Source: a virus
Virus record (IMG/VR): IMGVR_UViG_3300030101_003309
Coordinates: 10,318 to 65,897 of that record
Length of the DNA stretch: 55,580 bases
Strand: one strand, 5' to 3'
The notes under the pieces were generated by a model. The model did no database searches, was not told the origin of the DNA, and saw nothing but the letters and a program-made list of their open reading frames with translations. Numbering within the stretch: the first letter of the stretch is position 1; every line of letters begins with the position of its first letter. This document shows, in pieces, positions 3-37,042 of this stretch. The position numbers were made by a program, and so were the translations under genes.

Positions 3-1424
3 GGAAGAGATAATCGTATAAGAGTAGTTAGTTGTGAGTGGAAATCATTACGTGCTTTGAGATTTAAGGTTTCTGAAAATAAATACAATCCAGAAAGACC
101 ATTTAGAAAATTAGTACCAGACACTTATAGAAAAAGAAGAGGAGAAGTAATAGAAACTAAATGGGTAGACGATATATGGGAAGCTACTATGATAGGTGGT
201 AAAATATTGGTAAATGCCAGACGTAGAGATAATCAAGTTAGAAGCGTAGATGATCCAGGTAAAACTCCGCTTTCGTATGTTGGATGCATATATGGAAATA
301 CAACAGGTAAATCAACATCTATGGTTGATCTTTTAGATAATATACAGATGCTTTATAACATAGTAGTATACCAAATAGAACTTGCTATGGCTAGATCAGG
401 TGGTAAGGCTGTTGTATATGATGTGTCACAGTTGCCGACTAATGTTGGTATGGACATGTCGCAAGTTTTATATCATTTAAAGACAGATGGTATAATACCA
501 ATCAATTCAAAAGATGAGGGTAACCAATTACAGTCGTTCAATCAGTTTCAACAAATAGACTTTACATTATCACAGTCAGTTCAGCAACTTATTAATTTAA
601 AAGTCATGCTAGAAGACATGGCTGGTCAAATATCAGGTGTATCAAGACAAAGAGAGGGTGCTGTAGGACAATACGAGTATGTAGGTAATGTACAAAGAAG
701 TGTAGTACAAAGCGCAACAATTACTGAAAGCTGGTTTTATTCACATTCTGAATGCAAACAAAGAGTTATGGAAAGAGTTTGTAATTTAATGAAGATATGT
801 TGGGCAAACGGAAAAAAGGCTGGTATGATACTAGGCGATGGAGCTTATAAATTTTTAAACGTTATGCCAGACATAGCCCTTCAAGACTATGGAGTGTACG
901 TTGGAGATAGCGGTAAAGATGATTCTATGAAACAAGTAGTACAACAGTTAGCACAAGCTGCACTGCAAGCTGGATCAATAGATATGTTAGGAGTAGTAAA
1001 AGTTTTAAAGGCCGACACTATGACTGAAGCTGAAAAAGTATTACAACAAGCTATGAATGAAATGAAAAAACAACAAGATCTTACTGCAGAACAACAAATG
1101 CAAGCACAACAAGTAGTAGCTCAAGCTGAACAATCTAAGTTTGAAGCTGAGGCACAACTTAAACAAATGGACAATGAGGCAAAACTACAAGTTGCTCAAA
1201 TAAGTGCAGAGTCAAGAATGCAAGTTGCTAAAATACAAGCTGAAGTTGATAGAGACATACACGATACCAAAGAAAGAAATGAAGTAAGTAAAAAAGCTGC
1301 AGAATATTACATAAATAGAGAAAATAAAATGGAAGATATAAAAAGAGAAGATGACAAAGAACAAAAACGTACACCAGCAAGAACATCTTCTGACGATCTT
1401 AAAAAAGTAGCAGAAAACTTATAA
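3..1424 (+). CDS. Portal protein, 5'-truncated by window edge
   Basis: The reading frame is open from base 3 to the stop at 1422-1424, so the true start lies upstream; the TTG at 57 is only an internal codon. The portal is the dodecameric ring through which DNA enters the capsid and to which the tail attaches. Support is the stretch SGVSRQREGAVGQYEYVG followed by NVQRSVVQSATITE, the arrangement seen in crAss-like and related portals, and its place directly ahead of scaffold and major capsid genes. The last ~130 residues are Gln/Ala/Glu-rich (QQMQAQQVVAQAEQ) and predicted as a long coiled coil, the expected wing/barrel end of a podovirus portal. The terminase gene is presumably just outside the window. 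Confidence 0.8.
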   Translation, partial: GRDNRIRVVSCEWKSLRALRFKVSENKYNPERPFRKLVPDTYRKRRGEVIETKWVDDIWEATMIGGKILVNARRRDNQVRSVDDPGKTPLSYVGCIYGNTTGKSTSMVDLLDNIQMLYNIVVYQIELAMARSGGKAVVYDVSQLPTNVGMDMSQVLYHLKTDGIIPINSKDEGNQLQSFNQFQQIDFTLSQSVQQLINLKVMLEDMAGQISGVSRQREGAVGQYEYVGNVQRSVVQSATITESWFYSHSECKQRVMERVCNLMKICWANGKKAGMILGDGAYKFLNVMPDIALQDYGVYVGDSGKDDSMKQVVQQLAQAALQAGSIDMLGVVKVLKADTMTEAEKVLQQAMNEMKKQQDLTAEQQMQAQQVVAQAEQSKFEAEAQLKQMDNEAKLQVAQISAESRMQVAKIQAEVDRDIHDTKERNEVSKKAAEYYINRENKMEDIKREDDKEQKRTPARTSSDDLKKVAENL

Positions 1425-2596: not shown

Positions 2597-4135
2597 ATGG
2601 CAAAATTATTTTCTGGAACTTATGGTTCTGGTACAACGGCAGAGAATGCTTTGAATACAGCCCTAATGCAATACCCAGAGATTGCAAGAACGCTAATTCA
2701 ACAGTATCCTCGTTATGCAGCGACTTACCTTTTAGAAAGAACAGGTCGTTTTGCAACAGAGAAAGTCTTAGGTGACAACTCTTTTGAATGGAAGGTTATG
2801 GGAAGATATAACCGTCCAAGTTTTAACGTTGGGTTTTTCTCAACTAATGGAACTTCATTTACAGCTTCTGGATCTGTTACTGCAACAGGCGGAACAATAG
2901 ATGATGCAGATGCTAATGGTGATAAGTTCTTCTTAATTATAGAAGGTGACACTGGATCTAATAATAGAACTGGTGACTTCTTAAATAAATTTGATATGGT
3001 AAGATTTCAGTCAGGAGCTACAGCAGTAGTTATAGCTGACCCAATAGCAAACACTTCTTCAAGTGGAGCTTCAACAGATCATATCGTACAATTTGAAATG
3101 ATAGACGCAACAGCTCAAGCTTTATTACCTAGTGATATTGCTGATGAAGCTATAGTAGCATCTATCGGTTCTGCATTCCCTAATGGATCAGATGGTGCTG
3201 ATGTAGGTGAAAATCACATGTATCCTGAAACTCACACTAACTGGTTAACTACAATGCGTAAAAAATGTTCTGTTACAGGTAAAGACCTTACTGATGTAAC
3301 TTGGATTGAAAATAATGGTTCAAGATTATGGTACTTTACAAGAGAACAAATGATGATGGATGAGTTTATGTACCAACAAGAATTACAAAGATGGTACGGA
3401 AGAAAGTCAGTAACTGACACTTCTATTAGAAGACCTAACGCTTATCAAACTGGTCTTTTAGGTACTTCAGGTACACAAGCTACTTCTGTAATCACAGGTG
3501 ATGGTTTATTGGCACAGATTGATTCTGCTAACCAAGCAACATACTCTTACGGTTCTTTAACTGAAGACATCATTACTGAGTTTATTGCAAAAATTTCATT
3601 AAATACACAATCTGCTGAAGGAAACGAGTTTGTTGTATTTACTGGAACTGAAGGTAGATTAGCATTCCACAGAGCTATGAAAGATTTAATCGTTGCGCCT
3701 GCGGGCTCGCTTACGGGAGGATCTATGAAAGGTGTTAGTGGTGATGTAGATTTAGGTGCAAACTTTGTATCCTACAGCGCATTAGGTAATAAGATAACTA
3801 TTGCTCATTGTCCTGTATTTGATGATCCAAACTTACACTCAGCAGCTGGAGGAACCAATTCATTTGGTGACAACAGATTAAGAGAATCTGCTAAGATGGT
3901 ATTCATGGACTTCGGAAGGTCAACTGGTGTGTCTAACGTTGAGTTAATCACAAAAGGTGCTGAAGGAGTTAACAGAAGTATGATCAAGAAGTATGTAGCT
4001 GGAATGGTGAATCCTTATGACCAAAAAGCAATATTGGCTGCTAACGCTGATGACAAATTTGAGGCACACGTGCTTTCAGAAACTGGAATCGTAGTTAGAA
4101 ACCCATTGTCTTGTGGTATCTTAAGTGCATCGTAA
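2597..4135 (+). CDS. Major capsid protein
   Basis: A 512-residue protein directly after the scaffold-like gene and before small head proteins. It begins MAKLFSGTYGSGTTAENALN and lacks signal peptide or membrane segments. The body alternates helical (residues ~240-265, FTREQMMMDEFMYQQELQ) and Gly/Ser/Thr-rich beta segments, and length fits HK97-fold shell proteins of podoviruses and crAss-like phages. Codon use is noticeably richer in GGT/ACT/TCT codons than its neighbours, which suits high expression. The leader is A-rich (AAAATAAAAAAAATG). The family assignment is from position, size and composition; I cannot show the fold from sequence alone. Confidence 0.75.
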   Translation: MAKLFSGTYGSGTTAENALNTALMQYPEIARTLIQQYPRYAATYLLERTGRFATEKVLGDNSFEWKVMGRYNRPSFNVGFFSTNGTSFTASGSVTATGGTIDDADANGDKFFLIIEGDTGSNNRTGDFLNKFDMVRFQSGATAVVIADPIANTSSSGASTDHIVQFEMIDATAQALLPSDIADEAIVASIGSAFPNGSDGADVGENHMYPETHTNWLTTMRKKCSVTGKDLTDVTWIENNGSRLWYFTREQMMMDEFMYQQELQRWYGRKSVTDTSIRRPNAYQTGLLGTSGTQATSVITGDGLLAQIDSANQATYSYGSLTEDIITEFIAKISLNTQSAEGNEFVVFTGTEGRLAFHRAMKDLIVAPAGSLTGGSMKGVSGDVDLGANFVSYSALGNKITIAHCPVFDDPNLHSAAGGTNSFGDNRLRESAKMVFMDFGRSTGVSNVELITKGAEGVNRSMIKKYVAGMVNPYDQKAILAANADDKFEAHVLSETGIVVRNPLSCGILSAS

Positions 4136-17009: not shown

Positions 17010-18248
17010 ATGGCTTATTCGGATATATTAAACGCAACACAACTATATGGTAATTTACTAAACAATAAGTATGCTAATACGGCAAATAATATAAACCAGT
17101 CAAAATTAGAATATACACCAGTAAATCCGTATTCTTCATCTGCTTTTGCGACACAATCTTCAAGATCTTTATATCCAGGAACAGGTAGAGGATTATTAAC
17201 TGGCATGCAGTTACAAGAAGAAAATCAACTAGAAGGCATGGATAAAACATTGACAAAAGTTGGGCAAGGATTACAATTTGCAAACTTTGGAAATAAGGCA
17301 ACGCCTTTTTTAAATCAAGCGTTAGGTAGTTTAGGTGTTTCAGGAGAGGTGGGAAGTCTAGGACCAGCGGCAGCTCTTTACGGAGCAACAAGAGATAATA
17401 ATCCATATGATTATTCACAAACAGAAGCTTTAGGAACATTAGGAAGTACTGTTTTAGCAGCTCGTTCTTTCTCAAATGTATTAAATCCTATTTTAGGTAA
17501 AGTCATGCCGCTTGCTAGTTCCGCAGCAATTCCTGCGGGTATTGCAGCGCCATCATTAGCTGCTGGTGTAGCAGGTCCTTTAGCGGCTCCAGCCGCAGCA
17601 GGTGTAAAAACAATATTTGGTATGCATCCTCTTCTTTTAATAGGATCTTTACTGTTAGGAGGTTTGTTTAATAAAAAGGCAAGAAAAAACGCTAGAAAAG
17701 AAGTAGAAAAAGAAATTCAAAGAGTGGCGGGAGAACAAACTAAAATATCAGAAGATAGAGCAGAGGCTGTAGAAGAGCAAAGAGAAGACATGTTAGCAAG
17801 ACAAGCTGCTGATATGTACGAAGACACAGCAGCAATGTACACAAATCAATACGGTGGCAATTACCAAAGATCTTATAATATGGAAAAGGGAGGTAAAATG
17901 GATGTTGTAGCGGAATTCACTGGTAATGAATTAATAGTTAATGATCAGAACGAATTAGAGGCAGACATATCAAGAGGTGATAATAAATCGGCAGCAAATA
18001 GAATAAGAAAAGCAATGAAAGGAGGTAGAATTACACCAGGCAAAGAGACACACAAAAGCAACCCAATACCAGTGTCTAGTGACGGCACAATGTATACAAA
18101 AGGAGGTCCGATGAATTTTAAAGTAAAGAAGGGTGCTGGGGTTTATGATCATGCAACGGATCAATTTAAAATGGATATGGATGACAATTCTATAGTAAGT
18201 GTTGTAAAAAAGAATATGGCTAAATGGAGAAAAAATAATATGGCGTAA
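17010..18248 (+). CDS. Internal virion protein, membrane-active candidate
   Basis: A 412-residue protein. Residues ~145-225 are Ala/Gly/Pro/Leu-rich and hydrophobic (AAPSLAAGVAGPLAAPAAAG, then MHPLLLIGSLLLGGLF), followed by a charged coiled coil (ARKEVEKEIQRVAGEQ). The C-terminal ~115 residues carry VAEFTGNELIVNDQNELEAD and GAGVYDHATDQFKMD, a module I associate with virion proteins of Bacteroidota phages. The hydrophobic stretch and location between nozzle and tail lysozyme suggest an ejected protein, comparable in role to T7 gp14. It ends with a TAATG overlap into the lysozyme gene. Confidence 0.55.
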   Translation: MAYSDILNATQLYGNLLNNKYANTANNINQSKLEYTPVNPYSSSAFATQSSRSLYPGTGRGLLTGMQLQEENQLEGMDKTLTKVGQGLQFANFGNKATPFLNQALGSLGVSGEVGSLGPAAALYGATRDNNPYDYSQTEALGTLGSTVLAARSFSNVLNPILGKVMPLASSAAIPAGIAAPSLAAGVAGPLAAPAAAGVKTIFGMHPLLLIGSLLLGGLFNKKARKNARKEVEKEIQRVAGEQTKISEDRAEAVEEQREDMLARQAADMYEDTAAMYTNQYGGNYQRSYNMEKGGKMDVVAEFTGNELIVNDQNELEADISRGDNKSAANRIRKAMKGGRITPGKETHKSNPIPVSSDGTMYTKGGPMNFKVKKGAGVYDHATDQFKMDMDDNSIVSVVKKNMAKWRKNNMA

Positions 18249-19975
18249 TGGCAAAACCAGGAAAAAATAAAATATCACAACAAGAAATCTATAATTATCT
18301 AATGACTAGACCAGGCATGGATGATATAAAGGCTCGTGGTATATTAGCAAACATTCAAGCAGAATCACTTTTTTATGCAGATGCAGTAGAGATTGGTGAT
18401 ATGAAAAACAAAGGAATAGGTTTGTTTCAACATACATTTCCTGCTAGAAAAGAAGCTTTTTTAAAAGCTGTGCCAGATTGGAAAACTAATTGGAAAGGTC
18501 AAATAGATTTTGCACTACAAGAAGCAGAGGCACAAAATTACAAAAATACAAATTACCCAACCGTAGCAGATTCTACACGAGCGTTTATGTTAGAGTTTGA
18601 AAAGCCTTTTGATCAATCAGAACAAGCTATAGAAAGTAGGGTAGATATAGCAAATGATATAAAAATAGAACCTGAAAAAGATAAAGATGTGTTGGTAGAC
18701 GCTGGACAATTACCAGAGGTTACGATCAATGAGCAAGAACTAATAGGAGATGGTGGCACATTACCAGAAGTAACTATAGAAGAAGAAGGAAAAACTTTTG
18801 ATGCGGGTACTTTACCAGAAATAAAAATTGAATCTAAGTTAGATATTGATACAATTAGAAGTTTACCCCCACAAGCTTTACAGGTAGACAGCACAGGTAC
18901 CTTGAGAGGTTCAATACCTACTGTTGCTCAAACAGAAGAGAATAAAAGCGCGGCAAAAACGGAAGTTGTAGAGACACAATATATACAGGTTATGGGTCCT
19001 AATGGTGAATTAGTAACAATACCTGTCGGCAAAAATGTAACAAAAGAAGATATTCAAAAATCTTTAGAATCACAGCAAGAAGGTATAGGAAAAAGACAAG
19101 AAGTAACACAACAGTTAGAAGCTCGTGATCAAATGATTGATAAAGATAATGATGGTATACCTGACCTCATAGATGCAGATGGAGGCACTGGACAATCAAC
19201 AGCAGAACAAGAAAATCAAGAAGCAGTAGTAGAACCTCAAGCGGAAGTAGAACCTGAAATAATACAAACGCCGCAAGATGATGCGGTACAAACTGTAACT
19301 ACAGATAAAAAAGGACCAAACGTAATGGGTGTAGCAAATGCATTATTACGTGGAACAGGAGCGATTTTAGACGGTTTGGGAGGTCCAGGAGCACTCATAT
19401 CATATGTAATGGGTAAAAAAGGATTAGATGCGGCTATGAAAGAAGTTGAACCGCAATCAAAACCTGAACTATCACCTATGTTTATGCAGCACTTGAGACA
19501 AACAAGAGAGCTTGCAAAAAGAGGTTTTCATCCAGATCAAGAAAGAGAATTTAGAAATGAATTAGACAAAACCTATCAAATGGGTTTGGAAAATGCAGTT
19601 AGAGGATCGGGAGGACAAAGAGCGAGATTCTTAGCGCAAAGCGGAGTATTAGATGCCCAAAGATCAGCAGCTCTTTTAGATTATGCGGCCAAAGATGCAG
19701 AGCTACAATCAGCCAATCAAGATAAATATGAAAAAATGATGTTGTTCAAAGAAAATTTTGACATCCAAAGAAGTGAAGAACAACGAAGTGAAGATTTAGC
19801 AAGACAAGAAAGGGATAAACAGGCTGCAGCAAAGTTTGTAGGTTCTGCCTTTTCTAGCATAATGAACTCATATGCCAATATGAATTCAGGTGCTGTTATA
19901 AATAAATTAGGTAGAGGAACGTTAGATCTTGTAAATCGTCTTACGACTACAGGATTAAATCAAAACAATAATTAA
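18248..19975 (+). CDS. Virion tail lysozyme with calcium-binding motif
   Basis: A 575-residue protein. Residues ~10-125 match the phage tail lysozyme pattern (RGILANIQAESLF with predicted catalytic Glu39, then GIGLFQHTFPARKEAF), a peptidoglycan hydrolase used during entry. Next come three spaced copies of an LPE(V/I)(T/K)I motif within residues ~150-195. A DKDNDGIPDLIDADGG motif at 298-313 is a thrombospondin type 3/EF-like calcium site. A Gly-rich hydrophobic patch lies at ~360-400 and a Gln/Arg/Glu helical region follows. It is coupled by TAATG to the preceding gene. Start ATG at 18248 gives the complete lysozyme domain. Confidence 0.75.
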   Translation: MAKPGKNKISQQEIYNYLMTRPGMDDIKARGILANIQAESLFYADAVEIGDMKNKGIGLFQHTFPARKEAFLKAVPDWKTNWKGQIDFALQEAEAQNYKNTNYPTVADSTRAFMLEFEKPFDQSEQAIESRVDIANDIKIEPEKDKDVLVDAGQLPEVTINEQELIGDGGTLPEVTIEEEGKTFDAGTLPEIKIESKLDIDTIRSLPPQALQVDSTGTLRGSIPTVAQTEENKSAAKTEVVETQYIQVMGPNGELVTIPVGKNVTKEDIQKSLESQQEGIGKRQEVTQQLEARDQMIDKDNDGIPDLIDADGGTGQSTAEQENQEAVVEPQAEVEPEIIQTPQDDAVQTVTTDKKGPNVMGVANALLRGTGAILDGLGGPGALISYVMGKKGLDAAMKEVEPQSKPELSPMFMQHLRQTRELAKRGFHPDQEREFRNELDKTYQMGLENAVRGSGGQRARFLAQSGVLDAQRSAALLDYAAKDAELQSANQDKYEKMMLFKENFDIQRSEEQRSEDLARQERDKQAAAKFVGSAFSSIMNSYANMNSGAVINKLGRGTLDLVNRLTTTGLNQNNN

Positions 19976-19976: not shown

Positions 19977-22040
19977 ATGGATTACGCATTATTTGAAGCG
20001 CTATCAGGACCGTTAGCTAATGCTGGCCTAATACAGCAACAAAGAGAGCAACAGCAGTTGCAACAGTTACAAATACAAGAAAGACAAAGACAGTTAGAAT
20101 TACAGCAATTAGACAAACAAAAAAGAATACAAGCAGATTTAAATAAATTTGCTAATGCTGCACAAAAAGATTTGTATACAAAAACAAATTTTTCTAGACA
20201 AAAAGACTTAGATGATTTTAGAGATTGGCATAACGAATTGTCAGGCTGGAGCGATATACAAAGCGTTCTAAGAGAACAAGGGTCAATAGATAATGCTAGA
20301 CTATATGGAAATTTAGATTATTTACTTGAAGAATACAGAACAAGAGTGCAAAACAATCCTATCTCTAGAAGAGTCAACAAAAACAAAGCTGCATTAGAAC
20401 TGTATCATTCATATGCACTAGATAAAGAAGGAAATGCAAAGTTCTTAACACAAGGATCAAAACAAAGGTATAATAACTTTATAAAGGGCAATACAGATAA
20501 TTTTGTTTTTTATGGAGGTAGAGGGGATTATTTAGGAGAATCTATAAAAGGTAATTTGGTTACAGACCAAATAGATCTTGACGATGTTTTAAATAGAAAT
20601 GAGAGTGCCATAAGAATTGATATGATAAATGATGGTAATCTAAATCCTAATACTACATTTTCGCGTGATGAAATGAAAAATTACTTGAAAAGAGAATTGC
20701 AAGCTAATGAGTTTAACGGTATAACTTATTTCCAAGGTAAACCATATTACGGAGAACAAGAAGTAGAATTAGACGCAGCTGGAGAAATAAACAATATGTT
20801 AGAAGGAGTGCAAGCAATGAAAGGTAGCGATTATTTTCAAACATATAATTTAGATGAAGGGCGTACTTTCGCTCAAGACTTTGTTGCAAGTGGTAGTGAT
20901 CAACAATTTGGAAAATTTGGCGGAACAACAGACGAAACTATGTTTGATTACTCTGATGATAACTATGGATTCCTTACTAAAGGAACACAAACAGTAGGAT
21001 CAACTAGAGTATTTACAGATCCAGATATGGAAACAAAATTAGCTAGAGCACATTTTGGAAAGTCAGGTGATAAATACCTATACAATGAACAAGATAGAAC
21101 ATTAGGTAAAGTTTCTATGAGAGGTTTATTTACTGAAAAAGGTAGCATAATTAATAGTCAAGATATAGATAAATTTTTTGGTGATGCAGGGAAAAGTGGT
21201 ATTCCATTTGAAGAAGATTTTATAGGGGAAAACGAATTTATGAAAGGATTACAATTAGAAGGATATTTTGTAGGATTTAGAGGAAAGTCAGCTGACGGAG
21301 AAGATATTCTATTAACAGACGTAACTAATGAAGATGATAGAAAAAAGTTAATGAATGCTTACAAAGATGTAGATTTTGAACCAGTATTAGTTGCTGAATT
21401 AAGAGATGAAGATTATCTTCTATTAGGTGGTGCTGATGATCGTTATTACAGTGTCGTTGATATGGGTAATTATGGTGTGAGGGAAAGATTGCAGCAAGAA
21501 ATGCCTTTGGATGATACGAGTGACGCATTAAATAAAGCTGCTACTTATGAAAAAAGGAAAGCAGAGAACGATTATTTTGCTCAAAAGAAAGTAGCAAACC
21601 AAATAAAGCTACAACAAATGTTAAAGCAGCCAGATGAAAAAAACACACAACAATTAGTAAACGGATACGATCAACAACTCACTGTGACTCTTGGTATGTC
21701 AGGTGTTGCTTCAGGGCAAATTCAACAAGCAGTTCCTTTGTTAATTGCAGATTTATATGTAGATTCGCAATTAAATAGAACTTATCCTTTTGATTTTACA
21801 CCTAACGAAAGTGATCCAAGAAAAAAGAAAATAGCAAATTCACCAGGTGAATATATGGCTTACGCTACAATGCAACTAAAGGAAGGTTTAATGTCAGGTA
21901 ATCCAGCATATCAAGCTATGTTAGAGGCAATAAGAACAGGTAATTATAATCAGTTTAGCAGAACATTATATGACGGAAAATCTTTCAAAAAAAGAAGAAT
22001 GTTATCAAAACAAATAAACTTATATCAAAGAGGTAGATAA
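19977..22040 (+). CDS. Internal virion protein, coiled-coil
   Basis: A 687-residue protein with a marked N-terminal coiled coil of Gln/Leu/Arg (QQQREQQQLQQLQIQERQ, residues ~20-55), then mixed alpha/beta sequence without a recognised domain. It starts 1 bp after the lysozyme stop and its own stop overlaps the giant downstream ATG (TAATG). By position it corresponds to the middle internal virion proteins of T7-like or crAss-like phages, which are ejected to build a channel or ride as cargo. No enzyme motif is seen. Confidence 0.55.
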   Translation: MDYALFEALSGPLANAGLIQQQREQQQLQQLQIQERQRQLELQQLDKQKRIQADLNKFANAAQKDLYTKTNFSRQKDLDDFRDWHNELSGWSDIQSVLREQGSIDNARLYGNLDYLLEEYRTRVQNNPISRRVNKNKAALELYHSYALDKEGNAKFLTQGSKQRYNNFIKGNTDNFVFYGGRGDYLGESIKGNLVTDQIDLDDVLNRNESAIRIDMINDGNLNPNTTFSRDEMKNYLKRELQANEFNGITYFQGKPYYGEQEVELDAAGEINNMLEGVQAMKGSDYFQTYNLDEGRTFAQDFVASGSDQQFGKFGGTTDETMFDYSDDNYGFLTKGTQTVGSTRVFTDPDMETKLARAHFGKSGDKYLYNEQDRTLGKVSMRGLFTEKGSIINSQDIDKFFGDAGKSGIPFEEDFIGENEFMKGLQLEGYFVGFRGKSADGEDILLTDVTNEDDRKKLMNAYKDVDFEPVLVAELRDEDYLLLGGADDRYYSVVDMGNYGVRERLQQEMPLDDTSDALNKAATYEKRKAENDYFAQKKVANQIKLQQMLKQPDEKNTQQLVNGYDQQLTVTLGMSGVASGQIQQAVPLLIADLYVDSQLNRTYPFDFTPNESDPRKKKIANSPGEYMAYATMQLKEGLMSGNPAYQAMLEAIRTGNYNQFSRTLYDGKSFKKRRMLSKQINLYQRGR

Positions 22041-25000
22041 TGGCAGAAAATAACGACTATACTTTAGGGTTAGATAACATATTATCGCAAGCAGCATCTC
22101 AACCACAAGCACAGCCGCAATCACCAGCAGACGATTTACAAAGTCTGTATGATAACAATATGGTAGAACAACCTGAAACGGAACAAAGCCCGTTGGGAAT
22201 ATCTGGTATAATAGAAAGTACCATACCTTCATATTCGGCATCTGATATGCAAAAATACACTGAACTTGTTGAATCAGTATCAGCACAAGATCAAATTGAT
22301 CAGACATTTGCACCCTTTAATAGATTTGACGAAGCACCAAATCAACAAATAATACAAGATCCAGATTCCATGATAGCAGGTACACCTGAAAGAATAAGAA
22401 GAGGTTTATCAGCAGGATGGGGAGATTTAGTATATGGAACAGGAGATACCTACGATTATGTCAATGCTTATCTTTTTAATGAGGCAAAACCAACAACATC
22501 AGTTGGTGATTATTTAAGAAAAGTAGGATCTACATACCAAAATGACAATGTTTTGGTTTTATCAGAGGATCTTAAAGATATGCAATTTGATGATTTAATT
22601 AAAGGTGAGTTTTGGACATCAAAAGCTTCAAGACTATTACCATATGCACTAAGTTTCTTTATACCTTACGTAGGTGGAGCTAGATTGGCAAATTTAGCAC
22701 TTAAAGGTGCTGCATATGGCAGAAGAGGTCAGAAGTTTGCAAGAGGACTGTCATCTACGGGAATATTAGGATCAATGGACAAAGGTGTTAAAGTTGCAAA
22801 AGCGGGAGAAAAAGGATTAAAAGGATCAGGATTATTAAGACACATTTCTAAAGATTTAGGAAAAAAAGGTGTAGTACCTACAGCATTGACTAGAAACGTG
22901 ACAGGTTTTATAGGTGGTGGTGCTGCAGCTAACTTAATGGAAGGTGCGTATTTAGCAGGAGAAGCTTATCAAGAAATGATAAATGACATAGATCCAGAAA
23001 CAGGACAACCTGCGTTCACACCACAAGAGGCGGCAGAAGCGGCAGCAGGTGTAGTCAGGGATAATGCTAAATACATGTATGTTGACATGTTACAGTACGG
23101 AATTTTATTTGGAGGAGCTGGAAAAGGTATAATGGGCAGGATACTTAGAAACCCAATAACTAAATCAACTATAGGCCAAAACACCAGAGGTCAAATAGCA
23201 AATTTAGTTAGAAGAGCTGCAGGAGCAGCGCCAGCAGTAGGAGCATACGGAACTATAGAAGGTGTTTCCGAAGGTTTTCAAGAAGTATATCAAGAGTGGG
23301 CAAAATATAAAAATATGCAAGAAGCAAAAGGATTAGATTATGATCCAATGACCACTTGGTTAAAAGACGCTCCTTTTGGAAAAAACAATCCAGAGTTAAG
23401 AGATATATTTTGGTCATCAGTAGGTCTGGGTGGTGCAATGGGTGGATTCAGAGGGTATTTTGATTCTGCTGCAGAACGAAAAGCATTAACAGACAAAAAA
23501 ATTGATCAATACAATAATGCCATAGATATTATAAGAGAAGCATCTGCCGATCAAACTGCTGATCAAAAACTAGCAATGGAAAGAGCTGTTGATAATTTAT
23601 TAGCTTCTAATATATGGAACTATTCAGGTGATGGATCAGTTGCTATGTCAATAGTAGAAAATTTGGTGGCAGACAAAAAGATTACAGAAGAACAAGGAAA
23701 TGCTTATAAAATAAAAATAGAACAAGCCGAAGCAAATTATGCAAAGCATCACGTCAATTCTACTTTAACAGAAGCGGGTGCTGAAACAGCTTTCTATCAG
23801 GAAATGAAAAAAACTAGACAGGAAGGTGCAATAGCGCAAGAAATAGAAAGTCATGAAGAGAGAAAAGCTAAGGCTAGAGAGATGATAAAAAACAAGAATA
23901 AGCTAGATAAAAAATTAGCTATGCTTGAGGATGAGCATAATCAAACAATGCAACGTTTAGAAGCAGAACTAGCAACAACAAATCAAGCAATAGAAGATAT
24001 ATATACAGCAGAAGTGGACAAAGCGCCAACAGCCAAGACCACAGGACAAAGAGATAAAAGATTTAAGAAAAAAGGTTTATCAAAAGATGAGTTTGAAACC
24101 TTTACGCAAAAAGGACAAGAACAAAAAACAGAAAGACAAGAGCAAGAGCAAAAAGAGAAAGAAGAAGCTGAAAAGGCCGAGCCTAAAAAAACGCTAAGAG
24201 AAACTTTGACAGAGGTTGGAACCAAAGCATTACAGACAGCTAAGGATGTAGGTGCAGCTGCTGTAAAAGGCGTAAAGGGAGTAGTTGACAGAGTAACAAA
24301 GCCTGCGTCAGAAAGAGAAGCTACTGCTGCAAAGCAAGAAGTAGAGGAAACTGTAGAAAAAATTAACAATCTTACTAACAAAGAAATAACATCCTCAGCT
24401 AAAAAAAAATTAATTGAAGCTTTAGAAAATGGAGATATATCAGTAGAAGCAGCAGAACAAATAAAAGGAAGCGGTAGGGGCGGTACAATAAACAATAGAG
24501 ATGTGTCAAGCGCGATTAGGAAAGACGCAAGAAAACAAGAAAAAACTACTGAAGAGTCTCAAGAAGACGTAAAAAAAAAAGACCAACCGAAGGTAGCGCC
24601 CAAAACTGAACAGTATGAAAGGACAGAAGAAGCTCTAAAAGGCAAAGGAATAAAGCCTTTCGTGGCATCTATATCTAAATTAGTAGATAAAAAAGCTGGT
24701 GCATTTAGTTATATGATTAAGGCAGCTGCTGGCAATACAATAAAGTTTTTTGCAAAGAGAGATGTAGATATACTTAAATACACAAGAGAAGCACAAAACA
24801 TAACGTTACGTTTGGTAAATCCAGTAGCAGGTGAATCCAATGTAGTAGAGGTAGATGGTAAACTGTATTTTCAATTTAAAAATAATGGACTATTATATGA
24901 AAATAAAATAGAAGTAGTAGCTGATGGTACTGTTATTGGAGAGTTAGAGCAAACAGCCCAAGAGTTTTATGAAGAAGGTAAAACCAGAACAAAAGCAAAG

Positions 25001-28000
25001 AAAAAAGATCAACGTAAAATAGATCAATTAGTCAAAGGTGTAAAAGAAGCTAAAGAAAAAATAATAAAATTTTTTACAAGAAGTCAAAAAGAATTACCAG
25101 ATTTTACTCCTACAGTTTTAGATATTAGACCTGCATTCAGATACGGATCAGGAGTCATAGCAGATTCTATAGTTAAAGATGTAGTGAACAAAAAATTTCC
25201 AGGAGCAAAAGGTGTTCTTGCTTATAATAAACTAATGGATGATTATGGACAAGAAGCGTCATCATTAGCTATTGGTTCAACTGTTTTTATAAATATAGAT
25301 TCGGTAGGACAAACAGATATAATACACGAAGCAGGACATATATATTATGGGTTGATGGAAGACACTCCGTTGATGAAAAGAATTAAAAAACTTCTACCTA
25401 AATCTGGATTATATACAAAAACAAAACAAGATTATCCTGAGCTATTACTTATGAAGTTTAAAGGTAGAACTGCTACATTAGGTGAGATTTACCGAAACAT
25501 AGTCAATAACACAGACAGTATGTCTGAGAATGATTTAATAAGCATATCTAATAGTATAAGCCAAGCAATAAAAGAAGGTGACAATACAAGAATAAATGAA
25601 TTGTTTATAAATCTTAGAACGCAGTTGAAAGCAAATGGCGCAACAGAATTAAGAAACAGTCAGCAAAAACATATATTAGAAGAAACATTTGTAAGAACAT
25701 TAGAGCTGTATTCAAAGGGAACAGTAGACGCTGTGATAGAAGGTTCAGCTGCACAAAAAAGATTAGAAGAAGATCTTATAAAATTCTACAAAGAAGTCAA
25801 GAATTTGACTAATGATGAAGACGCTAGACAAATATTAAATTTAACTGTAAAAGATATAGCTTCTTTAGATTTAGAAAATGCAACAAAAGCTGTTCTTCTT
25901 AACTTTGGATCTGATAACAGAACATTACCTAGAATGCGTAATTCTGCATACGGACCAATAAATAAAGCAATAAAAAAACCTTTTGAAAAAAACACATCTT
26001 ACTCTGCAGTGTCTTTTTATATATCTGAATATATAGGTGCTAACAGAAGCGTACAAGAAATCACAGACAATGTAATGCAAGCCATTGCCGATGACTCCAA
26101 TTTATCTATCAAAGATGAAAATGTGCAAAGAACAAGAAACTACATTGAATCAATAATTGCACAAATACAAAGACCTAAGCAGCTACAGCAAGCTGATAAA
26201 ATATTAGATAAAGAGCTATCTAGGATAGGTATAGATTTGAAATCAAAAGAAGACATTACAGGTCAATCTGAAGAAACAAATGATATCAACAGTAGAGAAG
26301 AAAAAGACATAGCTTTACCAAAAACTACTACAAACTTTGTTAAGAAACTTGTAGAGGTACATAACAATAGCGTAGAGGAAGGGGGTAGAATAGATGCAAA
26401 ACAAGTGTTAGCAGCTCTTATGTCTGCAGCTAAAGCAACAAGAGAGAATCCGATGGACTTTGCATATGAGGTAAGAAGATCACCAAACGAAGCATTGACA
26501 GCGATAGTTAATGTAATGGACAGGATTTATGGTAATGATCAAGTTTTAACGAATGCAAAGTTATTACAAATTAAAGGTCCAGTAGAAGGTATAACAATAG
26601 AAACATTAGCTCACAATGTATTAACTATACAAAATGAAAATGATAGATATTGGACCAGGTATATAAGCACAAGCGCAACTGTAGAAAAGAGTGTTGTTGA
26701 CGGTGTAGTAAAATCAATAAAAGGCAATGAAGATGTTATTAAAGAAGTTGTAAGAGTGTACAACACTTTGTTTCAAGACAAAAATCCTGGTAGTAGTAGA
26801 GACAGGTATGATGCCGCTAAAGCTATCTTTCAAACTATATTGTCTGCTGATAATAAAGGTGTTTTAATTGACATAGACTCTATGCTTAGTCAAACTATGA
26901 TATACAAAGGCAAAAGACAATCAGTGTCAGATATATTATTTGATAATACAATAAACAAGTTTGGTAATCCAGATTTAAAAAACAAATTTATAGTTAGACA
27001 TATTAGTAAGAAAAAAGGTTTTGCTGATGAAATAAACAACAGAAAAGTTTTAGGAACCTTTCATGGTAATCAATCTGATATAAGAACAATATTAACGCAT
27101 GGGGTCATAGCATCTAGAGCGACTAATTATTTATCTATGGTAGATAATGTAGATATGGATGGTGTTAGTATATTTAACAAGGAGAATGGTTTAAGAAACA
27201 GAGCTGACAATGTAGAAAGAATATTTAACGAAGATATACAGTTGGACAAAAACGATATAATGCATCATGATAACAACATATATAGTTTGATGGCATTACG
27301 TAATAAAAACAAAGATGGTAAAAAAACTTTTCACTTTACCATACATTCTGGTTTAATGCGTAGATTTATCAATCAAGCAAAAGGTTTAAAAAACAAAGAC
27401 AACAGAACAAAAAAGTTTACAGATATAAATCCTGATGAATTAATTGCAGCAGACTTCTTTATGTTTCTAAATAAATATAATGATGGTATAAAGAATAATG
27501 AAAAAGTTATACGGTACGATCAGCCTATTGCAGTATTTTCTGACAAAAGCAGAAGGTATTATGTAGAAAGTATAGCTGCTCATAATCCTGCAATGAGAAA
27601 ACTATTGTTGTCAAAAATAGAAAACAATCCTGCATATAAAGCAAAATATAAAAATGGAGATCGTGTATTTCCATATGACATTGTTAATGGCAAAATAAAA
27701 CAAATGCCTGAGTTGCTAAAAAAATGGAGAGACTACGCGAACAAAAACAAAGAGTTATTTAAGAATAATAACGCTCTTAAAAAAGGTGTGTTTGAAGAAG
27801 GTGCGGTAGAGGCATTTTTAACTTCTTATATTGCTAATAAGTTTATGGCGCAGCAACTGTTTGTTCATGATCATAGACAATCTAAAAATCAAGTAGACTA
27901 TATAAAACGTGCTGCAGGAGCTATAGCTAGTCACACTGTGTTTGATAGAAATACTACAGTAGAGTTTGTAGTTACAAAAGATTATTACGAAACAAAAGAT

Positions 28001-31000
28001 GGTGACATACTAACAGAAGATCAAGCAAAAAAACAATTTGGAGATAATTGGAAAGACAATGTAGCGATTGAAAATGACGCTATGGGTTACGTATTACCAG
28101 AAGAAGCAAAGATGATAAGAGCAAGATACGGTGAATCGCAGAATGTAGGTAATGTGTTTAAGTTTGTATATCATTACACACAGTTAGAAGGCCCGCAAAA
28201 GGGCAGGACTACATACATGAAGTTTGCGGTGCATACACTAACACCAGAGCTAGAAGCAAAAAGTGAGTATTTAAAAAACATAGGTGATGTATTAAGAGCT
28301 AGAACACAAGAGGTAAGAGCAATAGGAGCTAACGGAGGTTTGGTTATTGCAGCATCAGAATCTGCAGCAAAACTATACTCAGGAGGCAACAGGGTAATAC
28401 ACGATATTAGTGAAGGATATGACATGGCTAACATAATGTCCATACAAGACGAAATATATTCTGACGAAAGTGGATATGTAGGTTTATCAGGTGAAGGTTT
28501 TGGTATACAGTTAGAGTTAGACAAACAAACGGACGAAAGATTCTTTCCTTCGCAATTGTTCTACAACTTGGCAACAAACATAGCGCCCGAAGAACAAACT
28601 ACATTAAATACTATGCTTTCACTCAGACAAAGGGTTATGGAAGAAAACAATGCTAGTAGAAATGCAAGCTTAATAATGAACGACAAAGGTACTGAATCAG
28701 ATGTAATAAAGGAAAGAGATTCATTCAAGTCTTCTGTGTCTGCTGATATATTTGATGTTCTTGTAGATAATACATATGAAAATCTTGATCCAAGATACCC
28801 GTATCTAAACGCTGTACACAATTCAATTGCTACAGGGCGTATAACGCATAAAGGTACAAAAATGTATACAAAAGGATCTATAGGCTATCAATCTGCTAAT
28901 CTAGGTATGGGTCTAAAATTTTACGAAAAAGGTTTGTTTGCAGAAGACCCATCTATTGTAGCGTCAGAAGCAATAGTTCCTGGCTACTTACAAGATCAGG
29001 GAGTTAAGATTGGTGATTTGTTTATTGGAACAAGGGTGCCTGCACACGGTAAGGTAAGTAGCGCAGTGTTTGTAGTAAAAGACTTTCATAAAAAAATAGG
29101 CGATACACCCACATCAAATATTACTATACCTTCTTGGGTTAGTAAGTACTGGGGTGCTGACTTAGATGGCGATAGCATACATATGAATTTTAAATACACA
29201 CTTGAAGAGGTTAGTGATAAGTCTTGGAGAAAGCTGTCTAATGATTTCTTTGATGCATATGTAAAACTCATTAGTAGATCGGAGAAAGAGGGCGAGATAC
29301 AAGCTGACATAGATTTTGAGAAAGATGCAGAAGCTGCAATAGCAAAAGTATTTAAAGGCAAAAAACAAGATTCACAATTAGAACCAACAGGTGATGGGCA
29401 AATGTTTGCAGACAATGTGCCTGCTAAAAATTTAGTTGGTATGATTGCTTCATTAATGAGATCATTCAATGTATTTTCTAATAGTCGGGATTCTTTACCT
29501 TTTAAAATAACAATAAAAGGAGAAAAAGGTCCAATAACACATGATAAGTTTTACGATGACGCAACAGCAGAAAACGGTGTCGGTAACTGGTATGGTGTTG
29601 CACAACTATTAAATATAGCATTAGATAATGCGAAACATCAATATGCTAGTAAACTTGGTATGGACATGCAAAGTGTATTTTCATATGTAATGCTACGTAG
29701 ACTTGGTTACTCTTTAAATGATTTAGCTGTACTATATAATTCTGATATAGTTAAAAGCTACATGGACTTTAAAAGAAACAGCAGTTCTGATTACGTTTCA
29801 AGAGATAGCGACATTAAAGATATGTTTATAGAAAAAGATAGTATAAACGAAAATCAATTATTAAAGTTTGCAAAGCAAGAAAAACTAGGCACTATTGATA
29901 TAAAAAAGTTTGTCAAAGATGGGGAAGTGTCACTAGATCTAAACAAACTAAACACATTAAAAGAAAAGCAAAAAGCAGTTTTGATGTTATATGCATTAGA
30001 TAGATATAAAAAGTTTGCAGTAGATCCAATATCAAAAGCTTTCACGGTACATCAAACTATTGAAAAGAATCCACTTGAATTAAAGAAAATAAGAGACGGT
30101 ATACAACAGGCGCAAGGTGTGGTCAACATACCAATGATAGGTAAGACAGGATTTACATATACGTTTACTGATCAAACTAAAAACAATTTTATAATTGATC
30201 ATGCTACAAAATTATTTGATTCGGTGTTACAAAGAGCTGAAAGAACAGACGTAAGATACTCACCGTATATGCAAAGAATACTTACTATACCTGCATCTTT
30301 AGATAGACTGAATGACATAGGTGAACTAAAAGCAGAAGTTGTAAATCAGGTTATAGTAAATAACATAAAAGAACAATTTACATTCTTGAATGATGTCAAG
30401 TCAGAGACAGTTTTAGTACAACAGTTTCAAGCATTAAAAGACAGTAATCCTGATAACGCTTTCTTGAGAGATGTTATAGAGGTAGGAGAACGTAAAGGTC
30501 AGAAGTATATTGTAATGAATAGAGCAAAGATTACAGAGTTTACATCTTACAAAGCTATAGAGCAATACAAACAAGCTTTTGGTCAGTTGTTAGAAGCTGA
30601 ACAAAATTTAATATTTGAAATAGAGTATGCGTTCAATAGGTTTGGATTATCAGGTGGTGCTGGTAAAGCTTCTTCGTTTGTACCATTCTTTAGTGATGCG
30701 TATGTAGAAAAAATAAACACTGCAATGTCTAATTTAACACAGGACAATCAAAATAAACAACCTGACTTTACAAAAGGCCCTGTACCACAAGAACTAGAAA
30801 ACGCTATAGCAGATGTAAATAGAAGGCAGTCAGGTGTGCAAAACATGACACCAGCAGAGAAAACAAAAATGCATGCAAGAGAAAACAACAACATAGTTTT
30901 ACCAAAAGCAAAAAAAGTAATACCAGCAGATCAATCATACAATGGTGATTACTTGGGTGGTGATGTAGAGGTGTTATCTTTTGATGAATTCTTGCGTGAT

Positions 31001-33484
31001 AAAGGTATAGATCCAGCTAAATTAAATGAAGAAGACCAAACATTAAAGGGATTGCGAGATCAATACACCGCGTACTTGAATCAACTAAAAACAGTTAAAG
31101 AGTTTGAAGAAACACTTACAAGAAAACCACTCAGCGGGTATACAATAGAAGGTCTGTATGACTTAGCAAGAGACTTTGGTAAGTTTCATGCTGCTGCATC
31201 TAAAAGTATAAGGTACAAGATAGAAAGAGAGATAGGCCAAAAAGCATTTCAAGAACAAGCAGAGTTTTTAAGAAAAAGAGGTAAACAACAAGATTATAAG
31301 TACAACATACCTGGTGTAGACGGTACACCACAACAAGATCTTACTAACTTTCAAGCCTGGTTGGGATCTAACAATATGACATCTAATAGGCCAGAAATAC
31401 AATACCTTATAAACGAAGCACAAAAACAATATAGAAAATATATAAGAAGTTTTAAAGAGCACAAAAGACTATTAGAGGAAAAGAATAGAGCTCTAGTTAG
31501 ATCAAAGTTACGTGGGCTTACTGTGTTAGAAAGATTACAAAAAGAATTTAGTAGACAAGATCGTTACAGGTTTATTTATGGTAACATAGCTTCTGTAGAA
31601 GATGGTAAAGTAAGACTATTTACTGAACAAGAAATAGTAGAAAGGGGTGTAGATTTGACCAAAGAAGAAAGAGAATATTACATAAGATACAAAGCTTTAG
31701 GTGAGGTTATGTTATCAGCAAATGATGGTAAAGCAAATATAAATGCTGGTCAGTTAGGTGTGCTTGAACATATGGGAAGAAGTGGATTGTTTGGACTTTA
31801 TAGCACAGCTATAGACGGACAAGACTATCATAGAGTAAGAGTCAAAGGTATAGACAAAAACGGTAAAAGAGTATTTAAAACGTTTTACGAATGGAGATAT
31901 GATGTATACAAAGGCAGAACAAGTAAACTTACATTAGATTCTGGTAGACAAATATTTGAGCTTGATAAATTAAGACGTAAAGCAAAACAGTTGAAAGCAA
32001 AAGGTATACATGAAGATGGTGAAAAAATTATGTTGTCTGATATGGAGTATGATGCATTAGTTAATGATGGGCATATGATGAGAAGACTATTAGGTTCTGA
32101 AAACTTAACTGACTTTGATCAAGAACTAATAAAAGAATACGAAAGAAGAAAAGGTGTAAAAGCACAAGATGTATCTTATGATATAAACACGGCTATGTTA
32201 GAATTTATGCGCGGTCATTTATTTTACAATGGAGACGGACAATATAAATTAGAAAACAATGATGTGGTTGCAAGAGAAGACAGGTTTACTGGTATGGGTG
32301 ATTTAGCTATACTTACCGATTCTATTATAGCATTTAATAAAAATTTGGATAACAAGAATGCCGTAAAATATTTGACTGGTTGGTGGAAAGAAGGTTTCTT
32401 AACTATGGGTCAAACGCAAGAAAGTGCATTAGGTAAAACAGGTGATAAAGTTATAGACACCTTTGTAAGACTTACATCCCTTAGATTATTAGGTTTTAAT
32501 ATGTCTGTCGGTATTGGTAACTTACTAGCAGGTAAATATCAAGAATTACGTAAACGTGGTGGCAAACAGTTTATATTAGGTGAATCTAGATATTGGAGGA
32601 ACTTAAAAAGATCAAGAGAAATATTAAAGGACTTAAGAGTAGTGGATTATAGTTTTGACGAATTTATACATTTGGCAGAACAAAGTGGACCTGCAAAACA
32701 ATTAGAAAAGTTTTCGTATTTATTTATGGATTATACAGAAGGCTACATACAAGGTGCAGCATTTTTAGGTATGTTGACTGAACAAGAATTTAATAATCCA
32801 GAAACAATTAGTGAAGAAAGAATAATGCAGATCAATCATAAAATATCTACATTGCATGGTGAGGGTTACACATCATTAGACGCAAGTCTTTTATCTATGT
32901 ATTCTTATGGTAGAGCACTGCTTCAATTTAAAAAATGGTTCATCACATTATTCAAAGACAGATTTTCGGCAGAAGATATAGATAGATTTGGTGATGTTAA
33001 TATAGGTAGTTATCGTGCTTCATCTGAATTTGTAACTGATTTGTTTAGAAGATATTTTGCTGGCGGTATAACAAAACAAGAAATAATAAAAATATATGAC
33101 AATGCAAGCGATACTAGAAAAGCAGCAATACGTGCACACGCAAGAGGTGTAGGTCTTGGTGTAACAGTATTGTCACTAATAGCAATATTAGAAGATGATG
33201 ATGATCCAGATACAGCAACTATAAAAACACTTAAAAAGTTCTCTAACGATATATTTGTAACTACTGACGTTAGAAGATTTTTAAACTACACTATAGTTCC
33301 ATCTTCTTATGGTACTGCAAAGAATACAATGAAAGCTATAAATCAGGCTACATCAGGAGAAAAAACGCAACGGAAAAGCGAATATGCAGATAGAGGACAA
33401 TCTAAAGCATTGAAAACATTTATGACAGAAGTTTTACCTGGCGCAGAAGTAAGAAAACAAATAGCAAGACTGGGAGAAGAATAA
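22040..33484 (+). CDS. Giant virion protein with zincin motif and DPBB RNA polymerase signature
   Basis: A 3814-residue polypeptide, the largest gene here. Order seen: disordered Gln/Pro N-terminus; Gly/Ala-rich hydrophobic region (~190-480); Lys/Glu coiled coil (~620-850); HEAGH at 1096-1100 with a possible third zinc ligand at Glu1214/1215 (HILEETFVRTLELY); an RNA polymerase signature, TRVPAHGK (2331-2338; Arg2332, Pro2334, His2336) followed by GADLDGDSIHMNF with DLDGD at 2374-2378; and a C-terminal region from ~3450 with hydrophobic helices (MSVGIGNLLAGKYQEL; GLGVTVLSLIAILEDD). The RxPxH...ADxDGD order is that of the beta-prime catalytic barrel (RPPTLHR...NADFDGD), whose aspartates bind Mg2+. 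Position and size fit a packaged RNA polymerase/polyvalent protein of crAss-like phages. Confidence 0.75.
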   Translation: MAENNDYTLGLDNILSQAASQPQAQPQSPADDLQSLYDNNMVEQPETEQSPLGISGIIESTIPSYSASDMQKYTELVESVSAQDQIDQTFAPFNRFDEAPNQQIIQDPDSMIAGTPERIRRGLSAGWGDLVYGTGDTYDYVNAYLFNEAKPTTSVGDYLRKVGSTYQNDNVLVLSEDLKDMQFDDLIKGEFWTSKASRLLPYALSFFIPYVGGARLANLALKGAAYGRRGQKFARGLSSTGILGSMDKGVKVAKAGEKGLKGSGLLRHISKDLGKKGVVPTALTRNVTGFIGGGAAANLMEGAYLAGEAYQEMINDIDPETGQPAFTPQEAAEAAAGVVRDNAKYMYVDMLQYGILFGGAGKGIMGRILRNPITKSTIGQNTRGQIANLVRRAAGAAPAVGAYGTIEGVSEGFQEVYQEWAKYKNMQEAKGLDYDPMTTWLKDAPFGKNNPELRDIFWSSVGLGGAMGGFRGYFDSAAERKALTDKKIDQYNNAIDIIREASADQTADQKLAMERAVDNLLASNIWNYSGDGSVAMSIVENLVADKKITEEQGNAYKIKIEQAEANYAKHHVNSTLTEAGAETAFYQEMKKTRQEGAIAQEIESHEERKAKAREMIKNKNKLDKKLAMLEDEHNQTMQRLEAELATTNQAIEDIYTAEVDKAPTAKTTGQRDKRFKKKGLSKDEFETFTQKGQEQKTERQEQEQKEKEEAEKAEPKKTLRETLTEVGTKALQTAKDVGAAAVKGVKGVVDRVTKPASEREATAAKQEVEETVEKINNLTNKEITSSAKKKLIEALENGDISVEAAEQIKGSGRGGTINNRDVSSAIRKDARKQEKTTEESQEDVKKKDQPKVAPKTEQYERTEEALKGKGIKPFVASISKLVDKKAGAFSYMIKAAAGNTIKFFAKRDVDILKYTREAQNITLRLVNPVAGESNVVEVDGKLYFQFKNNGLLYENKIEVVADGTVIGELEQTAQEFYEEGKTRTKAKKKDQRKIDQLVKGVKEAKEKIIKFFTRSQKELPDFTPTVLDIRPAFRYGSGVIADSIVKDVVNKKFPGAKGVLAYNKLMDDYGQEASSLAIGSTVFINIDSVGQTDIIHEAGHIYYGLMEDTPLMKRIKKLLPKSGLYTKTKQDYPELLLMKFKGRTATLGEIYRNIVNNTDSMSENDLISISNSISQAIKEGDNTRINELFINLRTQLKANGATELRNSQQKHILEETFVRTLELYSKGTVDAVIEGSAAQKRLEEDLIKFYKEVKNLTNDEDARQILNLTVKDIASLDLENATKAVLLNFGSDNRTLPRMRNSAYGPINKAIKKPFEKNTSYSAVSFYISEYIGANRSVQEITDNVMQAIADDSNLSIKDENVQRTRNYIESIIAQIQRPKQLQQADKILDKELSRIGIDLKSKEDITGQSEETNDINSREEKDIALPKTTTNFVKKLVEVHNNSVEEGGRIDAKQVLAALMSAAKATRENPMDFAYEVRRSPNEALTAIVNVMDRIYGNDQVLTNAKLLQIKGPVEGITIETLAHNVLTIQNENDRYWTRYISTSATVEKSVVDGVVKSIKGNEDVIKEVVRVYNTLFQDKNPGSSRDRYDAAKAIFQTILSADNKGVLIDIDSMLSQTMIYKGKRQSVSDILFDNTINKFGNPDLKNKFIVRHISKKKGFADEINNRKVLGTFHGNQSDIRTILTHGVIASRATNYLSMVDNVDMDGVSIFNKENGLRNRADNVERIFNEDIQLDKNDIMHHDNNIYSLMALRNKNKDGKKTFHFTIHSGLMRRFINQAKGLKNKDNRTKKFTDINPDELIAADFFMFLNKYNDGIKNNEKVIRYDQPIAVFSDKSRRYYVESIAAHNPAMRKLLLSKIENNPAYKAKYKNGDRVFPYDIVNGKIKQMPELLKKWRDYANKNKELFKNNNALKKGVFEEGAVEAFLTSYIANKFMAQQLFVHDHRQSKNQVDYIKRAAGAIASHTVFDRNTTVEFVVTKDYYETKDGDILTEDQAKKQFGDNWKDNVAIENDAMGYVLPEEAKMIRARYGESQNVGNVFKFVYHYTQLEGPQKGRTTYMKFAVHTLTPELEAKSEYLKNIGDVLRARTQEVRAIGANGGLVIAASESAAKLYSGGNRVIHDISEGYDMANIMSIQDEIYSDESGYVGLSGEGFGIQLELDKQTDERFFPSQLFYNLATNIAPEEQTTLNTMLSLRQRVMEENNASRNASLIMNDKGTESDVIKERDSFKSSVSADIFDVLVDNTYENLDPRYPYLNAVHNSIATGRITHKGTKMYTKGSIGYQSANLGMGLKFYEKGLFAEDPSIVASEAIVPGYLQDQGVKIGDLFIGTRVPAHGKVSSAVFVVKDFHKKIGDTPTSNITIPSWVSKYWGADLDGDSIHMNFKYTLEEVSDKSWRKLSNDFFDAYVKLISRSEKEGEIQADIDFEKDAEAAIAKVFKGKKQDSQLEPTGDGQMFADNVPAKNLVGMIASLMRSFNVFSNSRDSLPFKITIKGEKGPITHDKFYDDATAENGVGNWYGVAQLLNIALDNAKHQYASKLGMDMQSVFSYVMLRRLGYSLNDLAVLYNSDIVKSYMDFKRNSSSDYVSRDSDIKDMFIEKDSINENQLLKFAKQEKLGTIDIKKFVKDGEVSLDLNKLNTLKEKQKAVLMLYALDRYKKFAVDPISKAFTVHQTIEKNPLELKKIRDGIQQAQGVVNIPMIGKTGFTYTFTDQTKNNFIIDHATKLFDSVLQRAERTDVRYSPYMQRILTIPASLDRLNDIGELKAEVVNQVIVNNIKEQFTFLNDVKSETVLVQQFQALKDSNPDNAFLRDVIEVGERKGQKYIVMNRAKITEFTSYKAIEQYKQAFGQLLEAEQNLIFEIEYAFNRFGLSGGAGKASSFVPFFSDAYVEKINTAMSNLTQDNQNKQPDFTKGPVPQELENAIADVNRRQSGVQNMTPAEKTKMHARENNNIVLPKAKKVIPADQSYNGDYLGGDVEVLSFDEFLRDKGIDPAKLNEEDQTLKGLRDQYTAYLNQLKTVKEFEETLTRKPLSGYTIEGLYDLARDFGKFHAAASKSIRYKIEREIGQKAFQEQAEFLRKRGKQQDYKYNIPGVDGTPQQDLTNFQAWLGSNNMTSNRPEIQYLINEAQKQYRKYIRSFKEHKRLLEEKNRALVRSKLRGLTVLERLQKEFSRQDRYRFIYGNIASVEDGKVRLFTEQEIVERGVDLTKEEREYYIRYKALGEVMLSANDGKANINAGQLGVLEHMGRSGLFGLYSTAIDGQDYHRVRVKGIDKNGKRVFKTFYEWRYDVYKGRTSKLTLDSGRQIFELDKLRRKAKQLKAKGIHEDGEKIMLSDMEYDALVNDGHMMRRLLGSENLTDFDQELIKEYERRKGVKAQDVSYDINTAMLEFMRGHLFYNGDGQYKLENNDVVAREDRFTGMGDLAILTDSIIAFNKNLDNKNAVKYLTGWWKEGFLTMGQTQESALGKTGDKVIDTFVRLTSLRLLGFNMSVGIGNLLAGKYQELRKRGGKQFILGESRYWRNLKRSREILKDLRVVDYSFDEFIHLAEQSGPAKQLEKFSYLFMDYTEGYIQGAAFLGMLTEQEFNNPETISEERIMQINHKISTLHGEGYTSLDASLLSMYSYGRALLQFKKWFITLFKDRFSAEDIDRFGDVNIGSYRASSEFVTDLFRRYFAGGITKQEIIKIYDNASDTRKAAIRAHARGVGLGVTVLSLIAILEDDDDPDTATIKTLKKFSNDIFVTTDVRRFLNYTIVPSSYGTAKNTMKAINQATSGEKTQRKSEYADRGQSKALKTFMTEVLPGAEVRKQIARLGEE

Positions 33485-37041: not shown

Positions 37042-37042
37042 T

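Follow-up and report, generated by a model that had tools for sequence, protein, structure and literature searches.

The analysed window is a stretch of 55,580 nucleotides from the viral record IMGVR_UViG_3300030101_003309 (positions 10,318–65,897), and its main features are listed in Table 1. Portal, Crass_capsid and crAss_MUZ families were recognized in this genome, which supports its crAss-like nature. The TerL encoded just upstream of the window in the record showed about 30% identity to crAss-like phage terminases. Three medium genes, one of which encodes a tail lysozyme domain, came after the muzzle gene and were followed by a giant gene whose ATG start overlapped the stop of the gene before it (TAATG). 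The giant gene sat among late virion genes of the same strand. The gene order was as in phage phi14:2, where gp079, gp078, gp077 and gp076 are consecutive and where gp076–gp079 carry an annotation as structural proteins based on MS/MS. Such a block of large multidomain transcription proteins was described by Yutin et al. (PMC7886860), and in crAss001 mass spectrometry detected gp47, gp49 and gp50, the RNAP-associated cargo of the virion (PMC10172136). A search for sigma-70-like promoters in the right arm gave 64 sites against 71.6 ± 9.0 in shuffled sequences, which is no enrichment. The muzzle protein was larger (2,287 aa) than its phi14:2 counterpart gp082 (1,340 aa). A run of unknown bases, translated as XXXX, was present within the portal gene (L160, about position 10317 of record G000), so that the window begins right after an assembly gap.

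Table 1. Position of the genes, modules and motifs in the window (residue numbers are those of the giant protein).
Feature	Position	Strand	Basis
Portal protein, C-terminal part	3..1424	+	phrog_6547, E 5e-73
crAss major capsid protein	2597..4135	+	PF23898 Crass_capsid, E 1.5e-37
crAss muzzle protein, 2,287 aa	10144..17007	+	PF25731 crAss_MUZ, E 3.7e-134
Cargo-region protein, N-terminal phage tail lysozyme domain	18248..19975	+	PF18013, E 5.8e-15
687-aa gene without family match, directly preceding the giant gene, in the phi14:2 gp079 position	19977..22040	+	Gene order
Giant ORF, predicted crAss-like virion RNA polymerase with flanking cargo modules, 3,814 aa	22040..33484	+	Translation, homologues
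N-terminal module, residues 1–780, hydrophobic Gly/Ala-rich segments	22040..24379	+	Hydropathy; weak hhalign match to gp078
HEAGH (1096–1100), zincin-like metallopeptidase motif	25325..25339	+	Conserved in 18/19 family members
Predicted RNA polymerase catalytic core, residues 1975–2610: barrel A, barrel B, downstream helices	27962..29869	+	AF2, Foldseek, hhalign
K2041 to K2061, conserved lysines, proposed barrel A	28160..28222	+	Near-invariant, n=79 sequences
Proposed beta-prime-type double-psi barrel, residues ~2265–2390	28832..29209	+	AF2 strand order; Pol II match of the core model
TRVPAHGK (2331–2338)	29030..29053	+	R2332, P2334 invariant 79/79
GADLDGDSIHMNF (2372–2384), predicted metal-binding DxDGD catalytic loop	29153..29191	+	G2372, D2374, D2376, D2378 invariant 79/79 (aspartates partly through the retrieval pattern)
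Conserved AQLLNIALDNAK motif (~2521–2533), downstream of barrel B	29603..29638	+	D2529, K2532 at least 90% conserved
C-terminal module, residues ~3439–3772	32354..33355	+	hhalign to cargo proteins adjoining the vRNAP

The giant gene translated into 3,814 residues and a stop. The two motifs on which the original prediction of an RNA polymerase was built, TRVPAHGK at residues 2331–2338 and GADLDGDSIHMNF at residues 2372–2384 of this ORF, were found on translation exactly where they had been placed. Translated in all six frames, the window contained a single DxDGD string, with 0.08 occurrences expected from composition in a protein of the size of the giant ORF. TRVPAHGK would be equivalent to the RxPxLHR motif of beta-prime and to the RIPNQG of crAss virion RNA polymerases (vRNAPs), enzymes that would be packaged in the particle and enter the host together with the DNA. 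The vRNAP of phi14:2 is gp077 of KC821624, a 2,180-aa protein which matched PDB 6VR4 by phmmer and which we take to be the protein that the literature names gp66 (PDB 6VR4). Its GYRIPNQGQSS...GSDFDID segment corresponded to GTRVPAHGKVSS...GADLDGD of the giant protein, with a spacing between RxP and DxDxD of 39 residues in phi14:2 and 42 here, and its LNAFVDNAK was matched by the AQLLNIALDNAK motif. Further upstream, K2041 and K2061 may be likened to the active-site lysines of a beta-type barrel.

Single-sequence searches of Pfam, PHROGs and PDB with the giant protein produced no RNA polymerase match. PDB HMM searches with family profiles returned nothing useful, the best being a spurious carboxyltransferase (E 0.4), and blastn and tblastn found no matching phage record. 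By profile-to-profile comparison, the window family aligned over 561 columns with A6, a profile of nine crAss-like vRNAPs (hhalign 99.3%, E 4.7e-20); the C-terminal part of the family, taken as a negative control against the same profile, gave an E of 0.16. When a crAss vRNAP profile built without the window family was run on the 65.9-kb record itself, the giant ORF was the only one matched (E 1.3e-8), and two pieces of this match fell within positions 29018–29833 of the window.

With the giant protein as query, 17 IMG/VR loci were found, and further ones by profile. Complete homologous genes consisted of a single uninterrupted frame of approximately 3,700–4,110 aa, full-length in more than ten contigs. 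The family showed 44–95% identity, to which was added a distant giant homologue at locus L044 (positions 2951–13648, more than 3,600 aa) with 19–22% identity, in which DHDGD is kept within a GSDHDGD motif. In the alignment of 19 homologues including L044, the invariant residues included K2274, G2279, R2332, P2334, G2372, D2374, D2376, G2377 and D2378, and because its residues do not vary across this set, the DxDGD-containing motif is no random string. When these 19 were aligned jointly with 60 crAss-like vRNAPs, only R2332, P2334, G2372, D2374, D2376 and D2378 were invariant, the invariance of the aspartates being partly built in because the search pattern used to collect the 60 proteins included GxD[FY]D[IV]D. 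The R and P, the lysines and the DNAK were absent from this pattern, and the remaining members of A6 were obtained by tblastn without any pattern. K2041, K2061, Q2157, G2279, D2529 and K2532 were near-invariant among the 79 sequences. G2377 lost its invariance once the 60 crAss-like proteins were added: the sampled crAss vRNAPs carried DxD[IV]D where the family had DxDGD, and I or V was likewise present in nine of the nine A6 members. The core showed a dN/dS of about 0.1, the lowest among the regions compared for L022 and L003. The family and L044 formed one clade on a long branch with a support of 0.99, in a midpoint-rooted FastTree tree drawn from a very divergent alignment.

Two AF2 models were calculated. 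The first covered residues 1560–2755 and used an alignment of the window family only. Its pLDDT was 67 and barrel B was of low confidence, and it had a single significant match in the PDB, 6VR4 (E 2.0e-17, probability 1.00). The second, limited to residues 1975–2610 and made from the 79-sequence alignment, reached a pLDDT of 85.3 and a pTM of 0.85, and matched 6VR4 in Foldseek with an E of 5.3e-18 and a TM of 0.65 over the query. The PDB matches ranked after 6VR4 were QDE-1, RDR2, P23-45 gp96 and cellular RNAPs, and the named BFVD matches were mostly crAss-like phage proteins, including those of phi14:2 and cr111_1. The core model also matched Pol II (2e2h chain A) over 98 columns at 4.0 Å. 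As crAss vRNAPs were part of its alignment, the second model does not provide evidence separate from the crAss homology; the first one does. A double-psi barrel around residues 2374–2378, the structural check proposed for the polymerase assignment, was thus predicted within a 6VR4-like two-barrel fold. A fold lacking the barrel at this position is not what was obtained, because the models match 6VR4, the barrel being predicted and not solved. Profiles, conservation and predicted fold together support the identification of this region as the catalytic core of a single-chain two-barrel RNAP of the crAss-like vRNAP type.

The regions on both sides of the core also resembled cargo proteins. The C-terminal module was related to phi14:2 gp076 (hhalign E 4.4e-7), to cr55_1 gp_05963 (E 8e-8) and to crAss001 gp49 (E 6.2e-5). 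The N-terminal 780 residues showed a weak collinear match to the N-terminus of phi14:2 gp078 (E 7.9e-4, probability 25%), and the link to gp078 is only suggestive. The simplest reading is that three collinear cargo genes, of the gp078, gp077 and gp076 types, appear to be fused in the giant protein. The polymerase had been proposed to be fused to entry domains. This part of the proposal was supported in part: the C-terminal side matches the neighbouring cargo protein and the N-terminal match is weak, and both would be putative entry domains.

The zincin-like HEAGH motif stood 1,278 residues ahead of D2374, the first catalytic Asp. This layout is common among crAss vRNAPs, because an HExxH was located 1,282–1,523 residues ahead of DxDxD in approximately 31 of the 38 crAss-like vRNAP ORFs with enough upstream sequence. 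Compared with the crAss zincin region, the zincin region of the giant protein gave a weak profile match (E 0.004); it did not match phi14:2 gp078, and no Pfam peptidase match was found for the HExGH region. The distant homologue L044 reads FEELGH, having lost the first His of HExxH, and since it keeps DHDGD, at least one lineage can do without the peptidase motif.

With the phi14:2 vRNAP, the giant protein shares the single-chain two-barrel fold, the order and spacing of RxPxxG...GxDxDxD, the LNxxxDNAK motif, and the location in a crAss-like genome after muzzle and cargo genes. It differs in that the phi14:2 enzyme is separate from gp078 and gp076, whereas the 3,814-aa chain appears to span all three, and in the active site, which is DFDID in phi14:2 and DLDGD here. 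Giant fused vRNAPs exist in Suoliviridae and Intestiviridae: 4,551 aa in cr55_1, 4,774 in cr50_1, 4,946 in cr118_1, 4,070 in crAssphage LMMB and 4,245 in crAss002. The cr55_1 and cr50_1 proteins are likewise a giant chain made as one polypeptide, in which an HEAFH metallopeptidase motif precedes the RNAP; in cr55_1, however, a gene of its own (2,007 aa) encodes the gp076-like module, and crAssphage LMMB differs by a separate RNAP-associated/zincin fusion gene. The giant protein had been thought larger than the polymerase genes of the group, and this did not hold, as crAss RNAP genes of 4,000–4,950 aa were found and a review mentions crAss RNAP genes of up to about 6,000 aa (PMC10136315). Another, separate example of a giant virion protein that conceals a polymerase is gp96 of P23-45, a tape-measure-fused protein of 5,002 aa (PMC10770324). 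It also holds a two-barrel vRNAP together with a metallopeptidase and membrane segments, with a DFDGD motif (PMC10770324), but it is a siphovirus tape measure with an N-terminal RNAP of clampless, flat architecture, and the fold similarity is weak. The N4 vRNAP and the polyvalent injected proteins share the principle of a giant multidomain polymerase that is injected and includes a metallopeptidase domain (PMC5512222); the N4 catalytic core is unrelated, with a T7-type polymerase fold. As a crAss-like vRNAP, the giant protein is a real and mostly expected find. As judged from sequence comparison, the features in which it is a variant of the known crAss vRNAPs are the apparent three-in-one fusion, the DxDGD in place of DxD[IV]D and the long-branch clade.

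We consider, with a probability of about 0.88, that the giant protein is the vRNAP of a deep-branching crAss-like podovirus, fused with neighbouring cargo proteins. It is probably packaged, because the phi14:2 and crAss001 homologues were detected by mass spectrometry in virions (PMC10172136), and homology together with gene order would make it a virion protein; it would be expected to synthesize RNA. It is hardly conceivable that a DxDGD-like string arose by coincidence within an unrelated giant ejection or tape-measure-like protein. This reading would explain the single-sequence family searches without an RNAP match, but profile, fold and invariant residues converge on one family and the negative control was clean. 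A vRNAP of another kind, either N4-like with a T7-type fold or tape-measure-fused as in P23-45, is very improbable. Such proteins follow a like logic, with polymerase, metallopeptidase and membrane-active parts in one giant virion chain (PMC5512222; PMC10770324), but the predicted fold is two-barrel and not T7-like, and crAss podovirus muzzle and capsid genes are present. The N4-like type was rejected as no T7-type polymerase was present among the 50 PDB matches listed, which were all two-barrel RNAPs or complexes containing one. The P23-45 type was rejected on the rank of gp96, eighteenth with an E of 3e-3 compared with 5e-18 for 6VR4, and on the presence of the podovirus muzzle.

It is also unlikely, though less so, that the protein has the crAss two-barrel fold but has lost its polymerase activity or its place in the virion, serving instead in structure or ejection, or acting as a non-virion polymerase synthesized once infection has begun. 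The strong divergence, with about 14–20% identity between the family and the other crAss vRNAPs, and the G that replaces I or V between the second and third Asp are consistent with such a loss. On the other hand, purifying selection, as indicated by the dN/dS, has retained the three Asp, R2332, P2334, G2372 and the lysines of barrel A, and the gene is surrounded by same-strand late virion genes at the position of the block detected by MS in phi14:2.

In the model that we propose for the fused vRNAP, residues ~1975–2610 would form a single-chain two-barrel polymerase in which barrel A contributes the conserved lysines K2041 and K2061, and barrel B the Mg-binding DLDGD loop with D2374, D2376 and D2378. 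The gp078-like N-terminal part, which carries the hydrophobic segments and the HExxH, and the gp076/gp49-like C-terminal part would correspond to cargo proteins encoded beside the polymerase elsewhere. The chain would be packed in the capsid as cargo and would exit via the portal and muzzle before the DNA, in a partly unfolded state. An ejection of this type, with cargo partly unfolded and preceding the DNA, was proposed for crAss001 (PMC10172136). After refolding in the host, probably a Bacteroidota bacterium, the protein would transcribe early genes without the host polymerase, probably those of the minus-strand replication block; it would presumably also determine promoter choice, and might have some peptidase function. 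A more speculative possibility, which we hold to be rather doubtful, is that the lineage merged the complete set of injected crAss-like transcription proteins (gp078-, gp077- and gp076-type) into one chain of ~430 kDa with a cellular-like DxDGD site, and that the embedded metallopeptidase-like region cleaves this chain into functional pieces, either while it is being ejected or afterwards.

The crAss-like vRNAP family would thereby gain a deep branch missed by ordinary Pfam and PHROG searches, and a DxDGD clade would join those with DxD[IV]D. Their fusion in a single gene suggests that the three large cargo components work as a unit in ejection and transcription, and makes tests on one protein possible. 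Genes of 3.7–4.1 kaa labelled "hypothetical" or "structural" behind the muzzle gene of such phages could be annotated as predicted virion RNA polymerases. A comparable case was seen in Flavobacterium phage Fpv2 (L055; L058, 34343–47548), in which a 4,401-aa "virion structural protein" aligned with crAss vRNAPs (RTP...GLDYDID). This protein, annotated as structural only, is apparently a vRNAP; compared pairwise with the window family it gave no match, although Fpv2 belongs to the A6 alignment.

Three genes located to the right of the giant gene encode proteins with possible features of export. The 371-aa protein at 35197–36312 has a signal-peptide-like start, MKKIILIFIFLYISFCLKAQ, and may be exported or located in the outer membrane; it had no PHROG or Pfam match. 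The 119-aa protein at 36682–37041 looks by eye like an exported thioredoxin-like protein (FNAAWNSAND...VVPTIIIFKDGEEVARF). The 740-aa protein at 37031–39253 possesses an N-terminal signal-like segment and many YGCTD-type repeats, and its C-terminal segment, LLGRPVNNIKNKFVIFIYDNGTTEKK, resembles a Bacteroidota type IX secretion sorting domain. ORFs of 930–970 aa similar to this last protein were present in two other loci, L014 and L016.
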